This document shows, one piece after another, positions 10,046 to 23,620 of a stretch of 64,000 nt of DNA (positions within the stretch are counted from its first letter, which is position 1; the number at the start of each line of letters is the position of its first letter). Source of the DNA: Nitrospirota bacterium (GTDB lineage: Bacteria; Nitrospirota; Nitrospiria; Nitrospirales; Nitrospiraceae). A model generated the notes under the pieces. That model had not been told where the DNA came from. It was given only the letters and a program-made list of their open reading frames with translations, and searched no databases. The translations under genes were made by a program, and so were the position numbers. The DNA lies in contig SCVN01000003.1 of assembly GCA_004296885.1 (NCBI GenBank), positions 124,001 through 188,000 on the forward strand. The letters are read 5' to 3'.

Positions 10046-11386
10046 CTAGCCCTTGGTGATCTGCTCCTTCAAGCTTTCCAGCGTGGCCCGTAACGTGCCG
10101 TCCGCTTCCTTGGCCTTGGCGATCTGCTTGCAGGCGTGGATGATCGTCGTGTGGTCCTTGCCCCCGAAGTGCCGGCCGATCTCCGGGAACGAGGAGTCCG
10201 TCATTTCGCGGCAGAGGTACATGGCGATCTGCCGCGGGTAGACCAGCGTCTTGCTCCGCCGTCGGCTCTTCAGCTCGGCGATCTTCACATGGAAGCGGTT
10301 CGCCACGGCCTCCTCGATGTCGTCCATCGCGATGATCTTCTTCTTCTCGCCGATGATGTCGCGCAAGACCGTCTTGGCCATGTCCATCGTAATGGCCTGG
10401 CCGGTCAACGAACAGTAGGCCCCCAGGCGGACAAGGGAGCCTTCCAGTTCCCGGATGTTGCTTTTCATGTTCGCGGCCAGGAACTGCACCACGTCCTCGG
10501 GAAGCCCGATGCCTTCGTCGTCCGACTTCTTGCGCAGGATCGCGATGCGCGTTTCCACATCCGGCGGCTGGAGGTCCGCGATCAGGCCCCACTCGAAGCG
10601 GGAGCGCAGCCGCTCCTCCATGTCCGGCATTTCCTTCGGGAACCGGTCGCTGGACAGGACGATCTGCTTGTGGGCCTCGTAGAGCGTGTTGAAGGTGTGA
10701 AAGAACTCCTCCTGGGTCCGCTCTTTTCCGGCCAGGAACTGCACGTCGTCCACCAGCAGCATGTCGATGTTCCGGTACTTCTTGCGAAGGTCCATCATCT
10801 TGTCGTAACGGATCGAGTTGATGACCTCGTTCGTGAACTGTTCCGTCGTCACATATGCGATCCTCACATCGGCCTTTTCGGCGACGTGGTTCCCGATCGC
10901 GTTCAAGAGGTGCGTCTTTCCGAGCCCGACCCCGCCGTAAATAAACAGGGGGTTATAGGCTTCCGCCGGGCGGTCCGCCACAGCCATGCTGGCGGCGTGG
11001 GCAAACTGGTTGCTGGCTCCGACGACGAAGGTTTTAAAGGTGTACTTGGGATTGAGAGGATTCGCGCGCCTGGTTCGTCCGGCAGGTGAGGTCTTCGTCC
11101 CCGCCGACGGACCGGTTCCCCCCGGGGATCTCGCCTGCTTCTCCGTCGGTACAAACACCACATCGGCTTTCGCTCCCCCTCGGGCCTCCGCGAGCGCCTC
11201 AGCCAGGAGTCCCGGGTGCGATTTTTCGACCCGTTCACCAAAGAACTTGTTCGGGACCTCAATCCTCGCCCCCACATCATCAATGCTCAACAGGCGCATT
11301 GGTGTGAACCAAGTGTCGAAGTCCATCTTCGAGACTCTGGACTCGATATAAGCCAGAGCTGATTCCCATACCGTACTACCGGACAT
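10046..11386 (-). CDS. dnaA: Chromosomal replication initiator DnaA
   Basis: 446 aa. DnaA binds DnaA boxes at oriC, melts the origin and recruits the helicase. Domain I lies at about residues 1-80 (WESALAYIESRVSKMDFDTWF), then a short linker, then the AAA+ domain with Walker A GGVGLGKTHLLNAIGN and Walker B MLLVDDVQFLAGK. The C-terminal DNA-binding domain carries the signature FGGKDHTTIIHACKQI. The start ATG at 11384-11386 gives the expected N-terminus. The 360-bp upstream gap contains DnaA-box-like sites, so autoregulation is likely. It heads the dnaA-dnaN-gyrB-gyrA series. Confidence 0.97.
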   Translation of the reverse strand: MSGSTVWESALAYIESRVSKMDFDTWFTPMRLLSIDDVGARIEVPNKFFGERVEKSHPGLLAEALAEARGGAKADVVFVPTEKQARSPGGTGPSAGTKTSPAGRTRRANPLNPKYTFKTFVVGASNQFAHAASMAVADRPAEAYNPLFIYGGVGLGKTHLLNAIGNHVAEKADVRIAYVTTEQFTNEVINSIRYDKMMDLRKKYRNIDMLLVDDVQFLAGKERTQEEFFHTFNTLYEAHKQIVLSSDRFPKEMPDMEERLRSRFEWGLIADLQPPDVETRIAILRKKSDDEGIGLPEDVVQFLAANMKSNIRELEGSLVRLGAYCSLTGQAITMDMAKTVLRDIIGEKKKIIAMDDIEEAVANRFHVKIAELKSRRRSKTLVYPRQIAMYLCREMTDSSFPEIGRHFGGKDHTTIIHACKQIAKAKEADGTLRATLESLKEQITKG

Positions 11387-16734: not shown

Positions 16735-17775
16735 GTGAGCGAGTACATCAACCGGATTACCGACGCCGTCCTGACGGGGAGCTGGGACACAGTCCGGGTT
16801 GAGGCGACGGCGTGGACGCGGGAGCTGGAGGCGCAGACGCAGCGGGACCCGCGGCCCTATTTTGCCCTGAACGTCGTCCACCTGCTCTACGGCGAGTTCA
16901 AGGAAGCGTGGAAGGCCCATGCCAAATCGCTGGAGGCGGCGGAGGACATCGAGCAAGTCCGGGCCTGGGTCGAGGCGTTGCAGAAAGATCATCCCGAGCA
17001 GGCGCAAGCCCAGTTAGTGGGGGGTCTCTTCCTGGCGCAGTCGGGCCGGTCCGAAGAGTCGGTCGCCCGGTACAAGGAGTCCGCCCGGCTCGACCCCCGA
17101 TCGGCCTACCCCCATTATTTCCTCGCGCAGATCCACGAGCGGGCGGGCCGCCCGGAGATGGCGATCAAGGCCTATCGCGAGGCGATCAAGCTGAATCCGG
17201 CCTTCGCGGCGGCCAGGATCAACTTGGGGGCCGCGTATCAGGATCAGGGCCAGATGGAGATGGCCATCCCTCAGTATCGCGAGGTCCTCAAGCTGAACCC
17301 CAATGATGCGGTCGCGCACGCCAACCTGGCCTGCGCCCTGGCGGAACAAGGCAAAATCGAGGCGGCCATCGTGGAGTATAAAGAAGCCATCCGCCTCAAC
17401 TCCCGCGACGCAGAGGTTCATTTTTCACTCGGCGGGCTCTACGAGACCAAAGGCCGCATGGACCTGGCGTTGCAAGAATATGAGGAGGCCCTCAGGGCGG
17501 ACCCGACCTTCGGTCCGGCCGAGACCGCGATGGGCTGGATCCGGTTGAACAAGGGTTGGCGGGAGGAGGCGATGGAGTCCTTCGGCCGGGCGCTGAAATC
17601 GAATCCGGAAGATGCGCGAGCCTACCTGGGGATCGCCCGTGTCTACTTGCTGAAGGGTAAGCAGCAGACGGCGATGGAGAATTACGCCCTGGCCCTGAAG
17701 CACGAGCAGGACCCGGAAAAAAAGAGCAAGATCATGAACGACCTGTTCCGCGAGGGCAATACGTGGGATGTGTAG
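16735..17775 (+). CDS. TPR-repeat protein
   Basis: About 346 aa from the GTG at 16735; a TTG at 16723 overlapping the DUF2231 stop is the alternative start. From about residue 85 onward there are seven or more tetratricopeptide repeats, recognisable by periodic LNPAFAAARINLGAAYQDQG, LNPNDAVAHANLACALAEQG and similar units. It has no signal peptide or membrane segment, so it is a soluble scaffold. TPR arrays bind partner proteins; the partner is not indicated, although the upstream DUF2231 membrane protein is probably co-transcribed. Nothing suggests an enzyme domain. Confidence 0.8.
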   Translation: MSEYINRITDAVLTGSWDTVRVEATAWTRELEAQTQRDPRPYFALNVVHLLYGEFKEAWKAHAKSLEAAEDIEQVRAWVEALQKDHPEQAQAQLVGGLFLAQSGRSEESVARYKESARLDPRSAYPHYFLAQIHERAGRPEMAIKAYREAIKLNPAFAAARINLGAAYQDQGQMEMAIPQYREVLKLNPNDAVAHANLACALAEQGKIEAAIVEYKEAIRLNSRDAEVHFSLGGLYETKGRMDLALQEYEEALRADPTFGPAETAMGWIRLNKGWREEAMESFGRALKSNPEDARAYLGIARVYLLKGKQQTAMENYALALKHEQDPEKKSKIMNDLFREGNTWDV

Positions 17776-17875
17776 TGGTGGCCAAAGACTAACTTCTCTC
17801 TTATCGGAGGAAGATTGGCGGGGACGGGTCGTTGAAGGATCTGCCCCCGTTTTTCTTGGAGTTGATGGAGCGACC

Positions 17876-19297
17876 ATGAGACCACCGAATCGGCTCGTGA
17901 CCGGAATGCTGCTGGGCTTGGCGCTGGTCGCGAGCGGCTGCATGACCCCGTTGCAGGATGCAGTGGAGCGGGGAGACCTTCAGGCTGTCCGCTCTTTGGT
18001 AGAACAGGGGGCGCCGATCAACGAGCGATCAATCCTCCTCGGGCCGCCTTTGCTACGGGCCGCCACCCAGGGCCGTGCGGATATTGTGAAGGTTCTTCTG
18101 GACCACGGGGCTGATATCAATGCGGGGCAAGGTAATTTTATCCCCTTGTCTGCGGCTGCATCAAAGGGCCACCTGGAAGTCGTCAAGCTTCTGCTTGACC
18201 GCGGGGCCGACATCGACGCGAAGAGTCCCAACTTCGGATATACCGCATTATGGTGGGCTGCCTGGACCGGCAAGACGAACATCGCACAACTGCTATTGGA
18301 ACGAGGCGCCAATTGCTGCGTAGCGAGCCGAGACCTTGGGGCCAACACTCCGCTCGAAGCGGCTCAAGCGAGGGGACATGACGTGATCGGTACGCTGATT
18401 CAACAAGCCGCAGCCGGGCAGCTTGGGACCGCATCGCCGGTTGCCGCATCTCCCGCACCGACCTCGCCCGTTCCGGCGAGCGACGTGGACGTGCCGTCCG
18501 TTGCGAGAGCCGCCAAACCCAATCGCTACGCCATCGTCATCGGCATTGAGCAATACCGCAACAAGTTGCCGAAGGCGGACTTCGCGGCCCGCGACGCGCA
18601 GACGATGAAGGATTACCTGACAAAGACGATGGGCTTTTCCGACGAGAACGTCGCCCTGTTGGTGAACGAGAACGCCACGGGGAGGGATTTGGAAAAGTAT
18701 ATCGAGCACTGGCTGCCCAATCGGGTGGAGAAGGACGGCACGGTCTTCGTCTATTACTCCGGCCACGGGGCGCCCAATCCCAAGACCGGCGACGCGTTCC
18801 TCGTGCCCTACGACGGCGACCCGGCCTTTGTGGATGCGACCGGCTATCCGCTGAAGCGACTCTATGAAAACCTGGGCAAGCTGCCGGCCAAGGAAGTCGT
18901 GGTCCTGCTGGATTCCTGTTTCTCCGGCGCGGGCGGCCGGTCGGTGATCGGGAAGGGCATGAGGCCGATGGTGCTGTCGGTGGAAAATCCGGTCCTGGCC
19001 GGCGGCAAGACGGTGGTGCTGGCGGCGAGCAAGGGCGATCAAGTCTCCAGCACCTATGACCAGAAAGGTCACGGCCTGCTGACCTATTTCTTCCTGAAGG
19101 GGCTCCGCGGCGAAGCGGATGCCAACAAGGATGGGTCCGTGGACTTGGCGGAAGTCTATGACTACCTCAAGCCGCAAGTCGAGCGGACGGCCAGGCGGGA
19201 ATACAACAACGACCAGCAGCCGCAACTGCTCGGCAATCCCACGATCCCTGCGAAAAGCGTCCGCCTGGTGGAGTGGGCCGACATCCAGAAGCCTTGA
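17876..19297 (+). CDS. Ankyrin-repeat caspase-like (C14) lipoprotein
   Basis: 473 aa from the ATG at 17876 (GGAG 6 bp upstream). The signal peptide ends in a lipobox LVASGC with lipid-carrying Cys22. Ankyrin repeats fill about residues 24-185 (DIVKVLLDHGADINAG, LEVVKLLLDRGADIDAK, IAQLLLERGANC), then a Pro/Ala/Ser linker, then a C14 caspase-like domain from about 212. The catalytic dyad is visible: His near 297 in YYSGHGAPNP and Cys near 347 in LLDSCFSGAGG. A calcium-type DANKDGSVDLAEV stretch occurs near residue 420. It is probably tethered to the outer membrane in the periplasm. Bacterial C14 proteins act in proteolytic signalling and sometimes in cell death; the target is unknown. Confidence 0.88.
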   Translation: MRPPNRLVTGMLLGLALVASGCMTPLQDAVERGDLQAVRSLVEQGAPINERSILLGPPLLRAATQGRADIVKVLLDHGADINAGQGNFIPLSAAASKGHLEVVKLLLDRGADIDAKSPNFGYTALWWAAWTGKTNIAQLLLERGANCCVASRDLGANTPLEAAQARGHDVIGTLIQQAAAGQLGTASPVAASPAPTSPVPASDVDVPSVARAAKPNRYAIVIGIEQYRNKLPKADFAARDAQTMKDYLTKTMGFSDENVALLVNENATGRDLEKYIEHWLPNRVEKDGTVFVYYSGHGAPNPKTGDAFLVPYDGDPAFVDATGYPLKRLYENLGKLPAKEVVVLLDSCFSGAGGRSVIGKGMRPMVLSVENPVLAGGKTVVLAASKGDQVSSTYDQKGHGLLTYFFLKGLRGEADANKDGSVDLAEVYDYLKPQVERTARREYNNDQQPQLLGNPTIPAKSVRLVEWADIQKP

Positions 19298-19376: not shown

Positions 19377-19646
19377 CTACAGGTCGCGGATGATGCCCTG
19401 CAGGACCGTGACCTGCGTGATCGGGTCGCCGGTGCTCTTGAGTTCGGCGCGGAGCTGCTCTTTGAGATAGGAGGAATAGCCGACCTTCTCGACCAGCAGC
19501 TCGAGGAACCGTTCGGCCGGCAGCAGGCTGTGGGACTTGAGATCGGCCAGCGTGTCGTCGGCGACCGGAACGTAGGTGCTGCCGATGTGCAGCACCACCT
19601 TATAGTATTGGCCGTGAGCCAGCCGCTCGAACCTCAGTCCCTTCAC
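19377..19646 (-). CDS. Small hypothetical protein
   Basis: 89 aa, soluble, with GLRFERLAHGQYYKVVLHIG at the start and an alternating helix pattern (LPAERFLELLVEKVGYSSYLKEQL) in the middle. It has no cysteines and no signal peptide. I do not recognise a family. It is convergent with the caspase gene and divergent from the hpnJ gene 294 bp away. Codon use matches the neighbours, which favours a real gene. Confidence 0.5.
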   Translation of the reverse strand: MKGLRFERLAHGQYYKVVLHIGSTYVPVADDTLADLKSHSLLPAERFLELLVEKVGYSSYLKEQLRAELKSTGDPITQVTVLQGIIRDL

Positions 19647-19940: not shown

Positions 19941-21377
19941 ATGAAGACCCTGCTCCTGAACCCGCCCTCGTTCGAGGGCTTCGACGGGGGAGCCAGTGCC
20001 CGATACCAGGCCACGCGCGAAGTGCGCTCGTTCTGGTACCCGGTGTGGCTGGCCTACCCGGCCGGGCTCATCAAAGACAGCCGGCTCCTGGATGGACCGG
20101 CTCAGGGCGTCTCTCCGGAGGAAACGATCAAGATTTCCGGGGACTACGAGTTCGTGGTGATCTTCACCAGCACAGCCGGGTTCAAGAACGACGCAAAGCT
20201 GGCCGAGGGCATGAAGGCCAACAAGCCGACGATCAAGATCGCCATGGTCGGGCCGCATGTCACGGTGCAGACGGAGGAGAGCCTCAAGGCCTGTCGCGCG
20301 CTGGACTTCGTCTGTCGCCGGGAGTTCGATTATTCGGTGGCCGAGTTCGCCTGGGGCCACAAGCTGGAGACCATCGCCGGGATCAGCTATTGGAAGGACG
20401 GCAAGATCGTCCACAATCCGGACCGGCCGGCGATCGAGGACCTGGACGCGCTGCCCTTCGCCACGGACATCTACGCGCGGGACCTGGATTACAAGAAATA
20501 CAACATCCCCTACCTGCTTCATCCTTACGTGTCCTTCTACGCCTCGCGCGGCTGCCCGGCTCTCTGTACCTTCTGCCTCTGGCCCCAGACCATGAGCGGC
20601 CATCCTTGGCGGACGCGCAGTGCGGCCAACCTGGTCGCGGAGGTCAAGGGGGTGCGCGAGAAGTTCCCCGAAGCGAAGGAAATTTTCTTCGACGACGACA
20701 CCTTTCCCTGGGCCAAGGCCCACGTGCTGGAGGTCTGCGAAGCCCTCAAGCCGTTGAAGATCACCTGGTCCTGCAACGCCCGGGTGCACACGGACCTGGA
20801 AACGCTCCAGGCCATGAAGGACGCGGGCTGCCGCCTGATGGTCGTGGGCTTCGAGTCGGGCGACGACACGATTCTGAAGAACATCAAGAAGGGCGCGACG
20901 ACCGAACAGGCCATCGCCTTCATGAAGGACGTCAAGAAAGTCGGGATCGTCGTACACGGAGACTTCCAGATCGGCCTGCCGGGCGAGACGCCGGAAACGA
21001 TCGAGAAGACCATCGAGTTCGCCAAGTTGCTGGACCCGCAGACCATCCAGGTGTCCATGTCCCATCCCTATCCCGGGACCGAATTCGACAGCTATGTGCG
21101 CAAGCACGGGTATCTGAATGACGACGAGATGACGGATGAACTCGGGCATCAGCTGCCGAGCATCCAGTATCCGGGCTTGGACCGGCGCTACATGGTGGAG
21201 ATGGTCGAGCGGTTCTACGACCGCTTCTACTTCCGCCCCAAGGTGATTTTGCGGTTCCTGCGCGTCATGGCCACTGATTCCCACGAGCGCGCCCGGCTGC
21301 TCGAAGAGGCGAGGGACTATTTTGCGACGCGCGCCAAGCGCCATCGCTTCGCCCGGGCCGAAGAAGTCAGCGCGTAA
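19941..21377 (+). CDS. hpnJ: Hopanoid biosynthesis radical SAM protein HpnJ
   Basis: 478 aa. HpnJ makes the cyclitol ether head group of bacteriohopanepolyols by radical ring contraction. The start MKTLLLNPPSFEGFDGGASA and the iron-sulfur motif CPALCTFCLWPQTMSGH (Cys-x3-Cys-x2-Cys) are distinctive, as are IFFDDDTFPWAK and HGDFQIGLPGETPETIE. The N-terminal B12-binding-like region lies at about residues 1-150. The start has AAGGAGG, spaced 9 bp. It heads a plus-strand run that includes a membrane protein, hpnI, a small transporter, an aminotransferase and a flavoprotein. Enzymes for the squalene-hopene part of the pathway are not in this window. Confidence 0.93.
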   Translation: MKTLLLNPPSFEGFDGGASARYQATREVRSFWYPVWLAYPAGLIKDSRLLDGPAQGVSPEETIKISGDYEFVVIFTSTAGFKNDAKLAEGMKANKPTIKIAMVGPHVTVQTEESLKACRALDFVCRREFDYSVAEFAWGHKLETIAGISYWKDGKIVHNPDRPAIEDLDALPFATDIYARDLDYKKYNIPYLLHPYVSFYASRGCPALCTFCLWPQTMSGHPWRTRSAANLVAEVKGVREKFPEAKEIFFDDDTFPWAKAHVLEVCEALKPLKITWSCNARVHTDLETLQAMKDAGCRLMVVGFESGDDTILKNIKKGATTEQAIAFMKDVKKVGIVVHGDFQIGLPGETPETIEKTIEFAKLLDPQTIQVSMSHPYPGTEFDSYVRKHGYLNDDEMTDELGHQLPSIQYPGLDRRYMVEMVERFYDRFYFRPKVILRFLRVMATDSHERARLLEEARDYFATRAKRHRFARAEEVSA

Positions 21378-21544
21378 CGATCAGCCGGTTTTTTCCTCCG
21401 ACCGGGGGTCCAAATCCCCCGGAGGAGGATCCGGTTGCAATGGCCCGGTCGGCACGACCCCCGATATTGCTCACACCTCAACCCGATAGACGTTCTTGGT
21501 GGCATCAGGCCGACGCTCCTGCGAAAAGCAGTTCGCACCATCGT

Positions 21545-22438
21545 ATGAATCAGACCCGACGACAGACCAGACCCCTGGCCCTCTGGACCTTCGCCTCGAC
21601 CCTCTGTTTGGCCGTGGCCATCGGCTGGACCTGGGTTGCCCGGGCCGACCAGGCTGCGCACGAGGGGCACGAGTCTGCTCCCCAGCACGAAGGTCATGCC
21701 GGCACGCCGGCCCAGCCGGAGCCGGCCGTGATGGATCACAGCGCACATCAGGCGGCTTCATCCGAGCACAGCCACGCCGACAGCCATGAGGGCCACGGAG
21801 CGCATGCGACCGGCCCGGTGGACGAGACCACGACCATCGTCCGGGGCGGCGTCACGCGTGAGGAGGAGAGGACCTACTCGTTGTTCATGCACCGGTCCTG
21901 CGGGACCATCGTCGCGCTCCTGGGCCTGTTGGTCCTGGCGGATCGGCTGACCCAGCGGCGCCATGGAGCCTTGCGCAAGGGCATGGGGGCGATCTGGTTG
22001 CTCATGGGCATCCATATTTTTCTGAACGCGGACCCGACCGACTGGCCGCTGGCCGCCACGTTCATGGAGAGCTACAACCGCCCCGGTTCCAGCGAATGGC
22101 TCCAGCACAAGGTCCTCTGTCTGATTCCCGTGGCCATCGGCCTCTACACGATGTTCGTGGCGCGGCGCGAGCGGTCGAATCCCTTGTCGGGGTATGCGCT
22201 GGCCGCAGTGCTGGCCTTCGGCGGGGTCGCGCTTCTCTATCACGAGCACGAGCACAGTCCGGGGATGGACATGGGGCTGATCGTCCGGCAACATAACCTC
22301 ATGGCCTTCACCTCGATCTTCATCGCGGCCGGCTGGCTGGCGGACACCTTGGACCGGCTGGCCTGGAAGCCCAAGTTCGTCATGGTTCCGCTCGGGCTGA
22401 TCTTGCTGGGGCTGGAACTGGCCGTGTACACCGAATAG
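21545..22438 (+). CDS. Histidine-rich polytopic membrane protein
   Basis: 297 aa from the ATG at 21545, chosen because it gives a standard signal segment (LALWTFASTLCLAVAIGW); an upstream ATG at 21440 in the same frame has a GGAGGAGG site but would add 35 unlikely residues. A His-rich stretch (HEGHESAPQHEGHAG and HSHADSHEGHGAH, about residues 38-80) could bind copper, nickel or zinc, and further His motifs occur in YHEHEHSPGMDMG. At least five membrane segments follow. I know no family name. It sits between hpnJ and hpnI with no terminator visible, so a link to envelope lipid synthesis or metal handling is possible but unproven. Confidence 0.7.
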   Translation: MNQTRRQTRPLALWTFASTLCLAVAIGWTWVARADQAAHEGHESAPQHEGHAGTPAQPEPAVMDHSAHQAASSEHSHADSHEGHGAHATGPVDETTTIVRGGVTREEERTYSLFMHRSCGTIVALLGLLVLADRLTQRRHGALRKGMGAIWLLMGIHIFLNADPTDWPLAATFMESYNRPGSSEWLQHKVLCLIPVAIGLYTMFVARRERSNPLSGYALAAVLAFGGVALLYHEHEHSPGMDMGLIVRQHNLMAFTSIFIAAGWLADTLDRLAWKPKFVMVPLGLILLGLELAVYTE

Positions 22439-22453
22439 CCGACGCGATTGACT

Positions 22454-23620
22454 ATGATCGAATGGCTTCAATGGTTCTGCCTGATTCCGGTCGTCGGAGG
22501 CTCGTTGTTCGGGCTGCTCTGCCTGCCCGCGGCCCTCTGGTTCTGCCGCGACCGGGCTGCCTCGGCAGCCTCGGGATTTTCGGAGGGACAATGGCCGCCG
22601 GTCACGGTCCTGAAGCCGGTCTATGGATTGGAGAAGGACCTCAAGGCCAACCTGCGGACCATGTGTTTGCAGGACTATCCGGACTACCAGGTCGTCTTCT
22701 CCGCGCAGCGATCGGATGACCCGGCGATCCCGATTCTCCACGAGCTGCAACGGGAGTTCGGCGCGGGCCGCGTGACGGTGGTGGTGAAGAACCTCCAGGC
22801 GGGCATGAACGGGAAAGTGAACAACCTGATCGGCGGGCTCACCGAGGCCAAGCATGAGATCCTGGTCATCAGCGACAGTGACATCCGCGTCCGGCCCGAT
22901 TATCTCAAGGCGGTCGTGGCGCCGCTCGCCGATCCGGCGGTCGGCTGCGTCTGCACCCCGTTCAAAGCGGTCAACGCCGGATGCTGGTACGAGAAGCTGG
23001 AGCTCTTGAGCATGAACGCGGACTTCATTCCCAGCGTTATGTTCGCCCTGACCACCGGCGCCTCGAACTACAGCAACGGCCAGTCCATCACGCTCCGGCG
23101 CGAGGCGCTGGCGAAAATCGGCGGGCTGGAAAGCCTGGCCGAATACCTGGTGGAGGATTACGAGATCGGCCGGCGCATCTGGGAATCGGGGAAGCGCATG
23201 GCCGTGCCGCCCTATTTCATCGAAGCCACGGTGGATCTGAAATCCGTCGCGCAATGGTGGAGCCATCAGGTCTATTGGGACCAGAACACGCGGTTCGCGC
23301 AGCCGGGCGGCTTTGCCGCTACCGTGCTGACCCGCTCGGTGCCCTTTGCGCTGCTCTATGCGTGCCTGCGGCTCATGGATCCGGTCGGGCTGACGGTGCT
23401 GGGCGGCGCCGTCTCGATCCGTCTCGTCACGACGGCCCTCATCCTCGGCCGGATCGGGGATCGGGAAGGGCTCCGCAGTCTGTGGCTCCTGCCCTTGCGC
23501 GATGTGACCGGCCTGGCCTCCTGGGCGCTCGCCTTCACACAGCGGACCGTGGTCTGGCGGGGCGTGGAATTCGTCCTGACCCGCAACGGGCGGCTGGTCC
23601 CGCGGGAGGCCCGGTCATGA
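22454..23620 (+). CDS. hpnI: Hopanoid glycosyltransferase HpnI
   Basis: 388 aa. HpnI is a GT2 (ceramide-glucosyltransferase-like) enzyme that adds N-acetylglucosamine to bacteriohopanetetrol. An N-terminal membrane segment (FCLIPVVGGSLFGLLCLPA) is followed by VTVLKPVYGLEKDLKANLR, the acidic ISDSDIRVRPDYL (D-x-D metal/nucleotide site), DYEIGRRI (late acidic motif) and an RxxRW-like WWSHQVYWDQNTRF region, then C-terminal membrane helices. The ATG at 22454 is the first plausible start; a TTG lies 6 bp upstream. It follows the His-rich membrane gene by 15 bp. The deacetylase HpnK, which would act next, is not visible here. Confidence 0.88.
   Translation: MIEWLQWFCLIPVVGGSLFGLLCLPAALWFCRDRAASAASGFSEGQWPPVTVLKPVYGLEKDLKANLRTMCLQDYPDYQVVFSAQRSDDPAIPILHELQREFGAGRVTVVVKNLQAGMNGKVNNLIGGLTEAKHEILVISDSDIRVRPDYLKAVVAPLADPAVGCVCTPFKAVNAGCWYEKLELLSMNADFIPSVMFALTTGASNYSNGQSITLRREALAKIGGLESLAEYLVEDYEIGRRIWESGKRMAVPPYFIEATVDLKSVAQWWSHQVYWDQNTRFAQPGGFAATVLTRSVPFALLYACLRLMDPVGLTVLGGAVSIRLVTTALILGRIGDREGLRSLWLLPLRDVTGLASWALAFTQRTVVWRGVEFVLTRNGRLVPREARS

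Follow-up and report, generated by a model that had tools for sequence, protein, structure and literature searches.

Domain structure of the ankyrin-caspase gene

Within the analyzed 64,000-nucleotide stretch of a Nitrospirota bacterium contig (the window), positions 17876-19297 of the plus strand translate into 473 amino acids with no internal stops. An alternative ATG lies upstream in the same frame at 17768; the start at 17876 is preferred because a GGAG (17867-17870) stands 5 nt upstream of this ATG and the syntenic relatives begin their signal peptides at the same place. The predicted product is an ankyrin-caspase lipoprotein with the features listed below, where residue conservation is given for 66 relatives with cores at least 43% identical and A1 is a 36-row alignment.

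17876-19297, plus strand: whole gene, ankyrin-caspase lipoprotein, 473 aa (open frame; RBS-like GGAG; syntenic orthologs in genomes G003, G001 and G014)
17876-17938, plus strand: signal peptide, residues 1-21, basic n-region and hydrophobic core (translation; AlphaFold2 helix 6-22; feature present in 59/62 assessable relatives)
17939-17941, plus strand: lipobox Cys22, predicted lipid-attachment site, with Met at +2 (invariant in A1)
17945-18415, plus strand: ankyrin-repeat module, residues 24-180 (PF00023/PF12796; AlphaFold2 helix pairs 25-182; Foldseek DARPin matches)
18416-18511, plus strand: Pro/Ala-rich linker, residues 181-212, holding SDVDVPS, with the SDVDxxP-type motif at 202-207 (A1 consensus)
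18524-19228, plus strand: Peptidase_C14 (caspase) domain, residues 217-451 (PF00656; core model; VIA-align to metacaspase 4)
18593-18595, plus strand: Asp240, putative acidic S1-pocket residue, equivalent of TbMC2 Asp95 (66/66; matches the Asp of metacaspase ND(A/V) in alignments)
18764-18766, plus strand: catalytic His297 of SGHG (66/66)
18911-18913, plus strand: Asp346, second putative acidic S1-pocket residue, in DxC (66/66)
18917-18919, plus strand: catalytic Cys348 of DSCFSG (66/66; aligned with metacaspase-4 DSCHSG)
18926-18994, plus strand: flexible yet conserved loop that follows the catalytic Cys, residues 351-373, containing the invariant Arg355; a candidate self-cleavage loop (low pLDDT; R355 66/66)
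19118-19153, plus strand: residues 415-426, DANKDGSVDLAE, an EF-hand-like loop of the putative p10-like half (residue conservation; sub-threshold EF-hand matches in relatives; CML18 match)

The preliminary description had placed a lipobox, an ankyrin array and a C14 domain with a His-Cys dyad on one chain, and the pattern, Pfam and alignment results confirm this arrangement in the 473-aa protein; as judged by sequence scores, the lipobox, Pfam and dyad matches are far beyond chance. Sequence comparison and structural models together demonstrate a predicted lipoprotein signal, an ankyrin module, a conserved linker, and a C14 domain that retains its dyad and has an apparent acidic pocket.

Lipoprotein signal and predicted localization

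The family set was compiled from 111 loci, which gave 88 distinct core-bearing ORFs. The signal count used the 67 of these with core identity of at least 43% and at least 200 residues from the core start, and 62 of them were readable at the N-terminus; the other five were cut or broken (L026 first ORF, L079, L090, L104 second ORF) or masked (L092). The preliminary description had made its reading depend on the signal peptide, and a signal followed by a Cys is kept in 59 of the 62 assessable relatives by a liberal rule and in 51 by the strict lipoprotein pattern, which we take to be PROSITE PS51257. The window protein satisfies the strict pattern, its lipobox being MRPPNRLVTGMLLGLALVASG-CMTP with Ala, not Leu, at -3. 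Among the long ORFs of the window, used as a control, 3/44 pass the lipobox rule in its strict and 5/44 in its liberal form, counting the window protein itself and with spurious frames left in; a chance lipobox was set aside on the comparison of the five liberal passes with the 59 of 62 in the family.

The strict lipobox fails in 8 of the 59 signal-Cys relatives, and two of the three syntenic orthologs have a non-canonical lipobox (LPGC in G003 and LANGC in G001) that fails the strict pattern. Among the 62 assessable relatives, the Cys is absent after the hydrophobic N-terminus in L103, L104 and L105, and several relatives outside Nitrospiraceae (L116, L119 and L122) look plainly secreted. Thus, lipid anchoring appears to be common but not essential in the family.

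By the rule derived from E. coli, an Asp at position +2 is the retention signal. None of the 59 signal-Cys relatives has Asp at this position, and the window protein has Met. The genome to which the window belongs (hereafter the own genome) encodes both LspA (PF01252, E=9.1e-41 in a profile search) and LolA. Of the proposed surface or periplasmic tethering, the envelope part is supported by the frequency of the signal Cys, the presence of LspA and LolA and the lack of a +2 Asp, whereas the surface part is not, since the sorting signal predicts the periplasm-facing outer membrane. We regard it as very probable that the protein is tethered in the envelope, and its predicted location is the outer membrane, facing the periplasm.

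Ankyrin module and caspase core

The ankyrin module is matched by PF00023 (E=2.1e-28) and PF12796 (E=2.5e-24). In the AlphaFold2 model of the whole protein (36-row alignment, mean pLDDT 85.3), paired helices occupy residues 25-182 and a caspase-like sheet begins at residue 217. The whole-model Foldseek list is dominated by designed ankyrin proteins, with a TMt of ~0.9 for DARPin matches, and as ankyrin proteins likewise crowded the PDB search results of the full-length protein, the core was searched alone. Ankyrin repeats of the own genome are almost exclusively caspase parts, since 19 of its 21 ankyrin matches fall in five lipid-signal caspase genes.

Residues 217-451 match PF00656 with 60.6 bits against a cut-off of 21.4 (E=2.3e-16), which places the protein in the C14 family; the best NCBIfam match to the caspase domain, NF047832 (caspase of EACC1-associated type), scores 99.4 bits, below its cut-off of 140, and the protein falls outside that family. 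The core-only AlphaFold2 model (52 rows) has a pLDDT of 89.5 and a pTM of 0.90. It has the caspase fold, as it aligns by VIA-align to metacaspases, MALT1 and caspases with Z 20-24 over ~195-220 residues; metacaspase 4 gives Z 23.6 and an rmsd of 2.2 over 219 residues, and MALT1, GSU0716, metacaspase 9 and caspases give Z ~21-23. The fold match reaches the end of the metacaspase chain (model 15-268, chain 2-423), which favors a p10-like half.

In the alignment, Cys348 of DSCFSG falls on the Cys of DSCHSG in Arabidopsis metacaspase 4. Six residues (H297, C348, D240, D346, R355 and E426) are each conserved in 66 of the 66 relatives. These were collected through their similarity to the window protein, which favors near relatives in the counts; among the 19 relatives more distant than 43% core identity, six keep both catalytic residues. 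Loss of the catalytic residues in all orthologs, which the preliminary description had named as fatal to its proposal, did not come about in the close relatives. A pseudoenzyme was set aside for the window protein on this conservation of the dyad, although more distant lipoprotein relatives, two of the own genome (L107 and L108) among them, have lost it.

Asp240 and Asp346 line up in the alignment with the acidic pocket of metacaspases; in TbMC2, the acidic S1-pocket residues are Asp95 and Asp211 according to section 17 of PMC6426788. The window caspase is predicted to be an Arg/Lys-specific homolog. The EF-hand-like loop has D415 in 63/66, N or D at 417 in 63/66, D419 in 63/66 and E426 in 66/66 relatives. 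Pfam EF-hand models match the relatives only below their cut-offs, and the core profile matches the calmodulin-like CML18 in the 415-426 stretch with E=0.0011. In the whole-protein model, pLDDT is below 50 at residues 351-364 and 366-373, although Arg355 in this loop is invariant.

Conservation and divergence at the locus

The gene order hisS, thyX-like, DUF2231, TPR, caspase gene, hpnJ and hpnI-like is common to G003, G001 and G014. No substrate gene was found beside the caspase gene, the neighbors conserved in synteny being thyX-like, DUF2231, TPR and hpnJ. An operon with the upstream TPR gene was considered and rejected: the two genes share a strand, but the gap between them is ~100, 200 and 315 bp in the own genome, G003 and G001, respectively. 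A promoter and terminator scan of the plus strand between the two genes gave nothing decisive.

The orthologs in G003, G001 and G014 are 96.5, 91.7 and 87.8% identical to the window protein in the caspase part and 70.7, 49.3 and 44.2% identical in the ankyrin part. As measured by sequence identity, the protease is held at the syntenic locus and the front changes. Gene conversion that equalizes the cores was set aside, as same-locus orthologs are nearer (96, 91 and 86%) than paralogs (~75% or less). In comparison with G003, the caspase part has dN 0.018 and dS 0.23 and the ankyrin part dN 0.19 and dS 0.63; the low caspase dN indicates that the protease is under strong constraint. In the ankyrin part, dN/dS is ~0.3 and positive selection was not seen. 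Changes are weakly enriched on the ankyrin binding face (64/191 vs 29/128, p=0.044), in a comparison of pairs that are not independent, one gene being used in two of them.

The caspase dS is below that of the flanking genes in the comparison with G003 (0.23 vs 0.32-0.88) and above it in the comparison with G001 (0.95 vs 0.24-0.58), the ankyrin part being saturated. The uneven synonymous divergence may be a hint of allele exchange; it falls short of proof, since the repeats could be aligned out of register.

Exchange of N-terminal modules in Nitrospirota

The window protein is matched at E<=0.001 in 60 of 61 genomes (own included) and at E<=1e-80 in 22 of 118 Nitrospiraceae genomes, and its core is matched at E<=1e-10 in 75 of 148 genomes of the phylum. 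PF00656 exceeds its cut-off at 15 places in the own genome (G000, where the window is C3:124001-188000), and a search with the protein itself gives three more (C23:44200, C8:47687 and C14:18827), for at least 18 caspase places. Twelve of these have a lipoprotein-type signal and a core at least 55% identical, and five of the twelve are ankyrin-fronted. The architecture had been called uncommon, which the twelve lipid-signal members and the Nitrospiraceae matches do not bear out within this genome and phylum, where the family is expanded; the apparently unusual feature is that a single protease core has exchanged its N-terminal modules.

The linker has the consensus VPxSDVDxxP in A1, with D203, D205 and P207 in at least 90% of the 36 rows. 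The N-modules of the 59 signal-Cys relatives form 12 BLAST clusters, ankyrin accounting for 18 relatives. Pfam matches in the sister fronts include PEGA, TPR, LptE and DUF2846 over the cut-off and TolB_N, LpoB, GNA1162 and BamE below it. On a core tree of the same 59 relatives, the module labels require 18 changes, against a minimum of 11 and a mean of 37.9 for shuffled labels. Because clusters C7, D7 and E4 resemble one another by eye and could share a fold, the figures of 12 modules and 18 changes are to be read as maxima. The ankyrin label needs four changes, at least three of them forced by starred branches, and this ankyrin-versus-rest count is independent of how C7, D7 and E4 are lumped.

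In individual genes, the exchange falls near the linker. A gene of a tandem array in G014 (L076_5675) has a module 60% identical to that of the C23 gene of the own genome vs 40% to that of the C2 gene, and a core 84% identical to C2 vs 71% to C23, with the switch around the SDVD linker; on these identities the gene is a chimera broken at the linker. Its neighbor L076_1990 shows the reverse pattern more weakly (module 55% to C2 vs 40% to the other; core 81% to C23 vs 77% to the other). The nearest core to that of the ankyrin-fronted L078 is L087 (87%), from another genus and with a different module. From the alignments and the tree, the family is a conserved SDVDxxP linker and protease core joined to apparently interchangeable N-modules (ankyrin, TPR, PEGA, LptE-like and others).

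Outside Nitrospiraceae, the linker and core were recognized by eye with ankyrin fronts in L116, L117, L119, L121, L122 and L127 and with a TPR-PDZ-like front in L118, and further relatives have other fronts. These relatives are in part lipid-type and in part plainly secreted, and tandem arrays occur among them.

Comparison with known caspases

The window protein shares PF00656, the His-Cys dyad, an acidic S1 pocket and the caspase fold with the bacterial C14 proteins (orthocaspases, metacaspases; MaOC1). It differs from these in its lipoprotein signal, N-terminal accessory module, EF-hand-like loop and apparently complete p10-like half; the accessory domains of orthocaspases are commonly C-terminal, as stated in PMC5756287. 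The top Foldseek match of the core is a solved bacterial structure, GSU0716 of Geobacter sulfurreducens (PDB 3bij; E=5.8e-14), which aligns with Z 22.1 and an rmsd of 3.0 over 213 residues at ~22% identity; its matched chain of 262 residues corresponds to about the caspase core alone. AtMC4 (6w8r), AtMC9, Yca1 and the MALT1 paracaspase are matched with profile E-values of ~1e-6 to 1e-4 and Z ~21-24 at ~20% identity, and their basic-residue pocket is alike. These proteins are eukaryotic and, to our knowledge, have neither an ankyrin module nor a lipid signal. Ankyrin repeats and Peptidase C14 also occur on one bacterial chain in Desti_1504 of Desulfomonile tiedjei, a protein named in a supplement legend of PMC3932732; the sections of that paper covered here describe no family or module exchange around it.

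A 2012 survey (PMC3501461) reports 1.11 caspase homologs per 1000 proteins in Nitrospirae, a high density per gene, with the dyad intact in 57%. According to the survey, many bacterial caspases have a likely signal peptide at the N-terminus; it speculates on surface roles, leaves localization open for most bacterial caspases and nowhere uses the word ankyrin. Both 'signal peptide' and 'ankyrin' are absent from PMC4933709. Exported bacterial caspases are therefore already known, and no lipid-anchored, module-swapping caspase family was found in the literature searched, most of it covered as passages. The family indicates a probable site, lipid-anchored in the envelope, for a large share of these caspases.

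Proposed mechanism and alternative explanations

We propose that the protein is an exported lipoprotein caspase whose module recruits or senses an envelope partner and which is probably activated with Ca2+ and self-cleavage, in a set of envelope sensors that share one protease; taken as a whole, the chances of this mechanism are about even. LspA would cut before Cys22, and the Lol route would carry the protein to the outer membrane, facing the periplasm. There, the ankyrin module may bind a particular envelope protein, and the modules of sister genes other partners. Binding, together with Ca2+ at the EF-hand-like loop, would bring the protease into its active state. It would cut after Arg or Lys, probably itself first, in the Arg355 loop or at basic linker residues, and self-cleavage could release the core from the lipid tether. 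The protease would then cut envelope proteins to a limited extent, so that the family may act as envelope sensors or substrate receptors with one protease output, possibly used in an envelope stress response, in protein turnover, or in regulated lysis or defense. According to PMC5756287, characterized C14 proteases other than animal caspases cleave after Arg or Lys, metacaspases are mostly Ca2+-dependent and the orthocaspase MaOC1 cleaves itself; the basic P1 preference and the Ca2+ dependence are also covered in PMC6426788, section 17. PMC5756287 further suggests that p10-less orthocaspases activate without Ca2+, which counts against the Ca2+ step.

A constant protease with swappable fronts is a testable design, and caspase triggers can be approached by module comparison and partner fishing. 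Nitrospira and its relatives are important in nitrogen cycling and water treatment, which gives an envelope stress or death protease set practical interest. More speculatively, and rather unlikely in so full a form, the Nitrospirota may possess a modular envelope receptor system: recombination at a fixed linker would join one lipid-anchored caspase core, gated by Ca2+, to a changing set of partner-binding modules, and each genome would have a private sensor repertoire with one proteolytic output. If true, its logic would be like that of receptor-executioner repertoires in the innate immunity of animals and plants, with the system located at the outer membrane on its periplasmic face.

A simpler explanation, possible yet in our estimate rather unlikely, is a constitutive degradative protease of the periplasm, in which the N-modules serve as substrate adaptors and misfolded or scavenged envelope proteins are turned over without a trigger. 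The many paralogs per genome with one conserved core and the variety of protein-binding modules would suit such an enzyme, and PMC4933709 puts forward extracellular protein degradation as a role of bacterial metacaspases. However, the flexible loop with its invariant Arg and the EF-hand-like site both have a regulatory appearance, and the subfamily is patchy (22/118 Nitrospiraceae at E<=1e-80). Caspase-type proteases are also known as specific, not bulk-degrading, enzymes, which argues in the same direction.

It is unlikely that the family serves primarily in envelope defense or programmed lysis, with the module sensing a phage or competitor signal and the protease killing or lysing the cell or disarming the attacker. 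Such a role would agree with exchanged, fast-evolving modules beside a conserved core, with a PADLOC caspase model match (E=1.9e-22) and with the surface cell-death action proposed for exported bacterial caspases in PMC3501461. The PADLOC matches, however, involve single-protein models (caspase, ankyrin-type and candidate) and make up no complete system; the gene lies in the conserved block from hisS to hpnI-like, not in a defense island, and the ankyrin dN/dS of ~0.3 gives no sign of positive selection.

An effector similar to polymorphic toxins, with the caspase delivered to or displayed against other cells, is very improbable: PMC3482391 counts caspase domains, signal peptides and ankyrin repeats among the parts of polymorphic toxin systems, but here the C-terminus is constant and the N-terminus variable, the reverse of those toxins, and no immunity-like gene lies downstream, where the next same-strand gene is hpnJ and the small conserved ORF 19377-19646 is on the opposite strand. 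Ankyrin domains are often cytoplasmic, and this, along with the failure of the strict lipobox in 8/59 relatives, would fit an uncleaved anchor with the caspase acting inside the cell; this last option is scarcely credible given the Cys immediately after the hydrophobic stretch in 59/62 relatives and the lipoprotein-type sister modules (LptE, PEGA and DUF2846 over cut-off; BamE, LpoB and GNA1162 below).

Neighboring genes and other caspase families

The minus-strand ORF at 19377-19646 (89 aa), convergent with the caspase gene, is 80-96% conserved in the three syntenic genomes and has no Pfam or NCBIfam match. It is followed at 19941-23620 by a hopanoid locus, hpnJ (NCBIfam equivalog, 716 bits; 99% identical in two congeners) and then a glycosyltransferase family 21 gene (hpnI-like). 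The dnaA gene lies at 10046-11386 on the minus strand, within ~7 kb of the caspase gene, and the replication origin is perhaps near.

Other caspase genes of the own genome differ in architecture. L020 (C6:13526) encodes a secreted-looking protein of 1081 aa with, by eye, many WD40-like repeats ahead of the caspase domain. L107 and L108 (C8:47687 and C14:18827), together with most of L039-L050, form a second lipoprotein-type family with ~34-39% core identity, in which mostly both catalytic residues are lost (pseudo-caspases); this second family occurs in several families of the order. The caspase genes L009:783-2534 (minus strand) and L013 (C7:83652 and C15:207522) have a C-terminal tail that looks FGE-sulfatase-like by eye; in cyanobacteria, this architecture has been connected with diversity-generating retroelements (PMC7517822). 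Variation driven by such elements was set aside, as PF00078 at E<=0.001 gives no reverse transcriptase match in the own genome.

In L156 (G183:C8), five caspase genes lie within ~15 kb, with a sixth in L157; their front modules mostly differ, and between them lie DUF4384 genes as well as genes that are PIN-like and, by eye, nucleotidyltransferase-like. Two arrays of other families have an exported-looking DUF4384 protein next to ankyrin-caspase genes; its relative in the own genome, at C23:15914, does not adjoin a lipid-signal caspase. DUF4384 is also present in cyanobacterial orthocaspases, as reported in PMC7475262. Other array neighbors match the CsgG and GNA1162 models over the cut-off and FlgT_N below it. 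By their domain matches, the array neighbors seem to point to envelope protein business, not to a known defense system.
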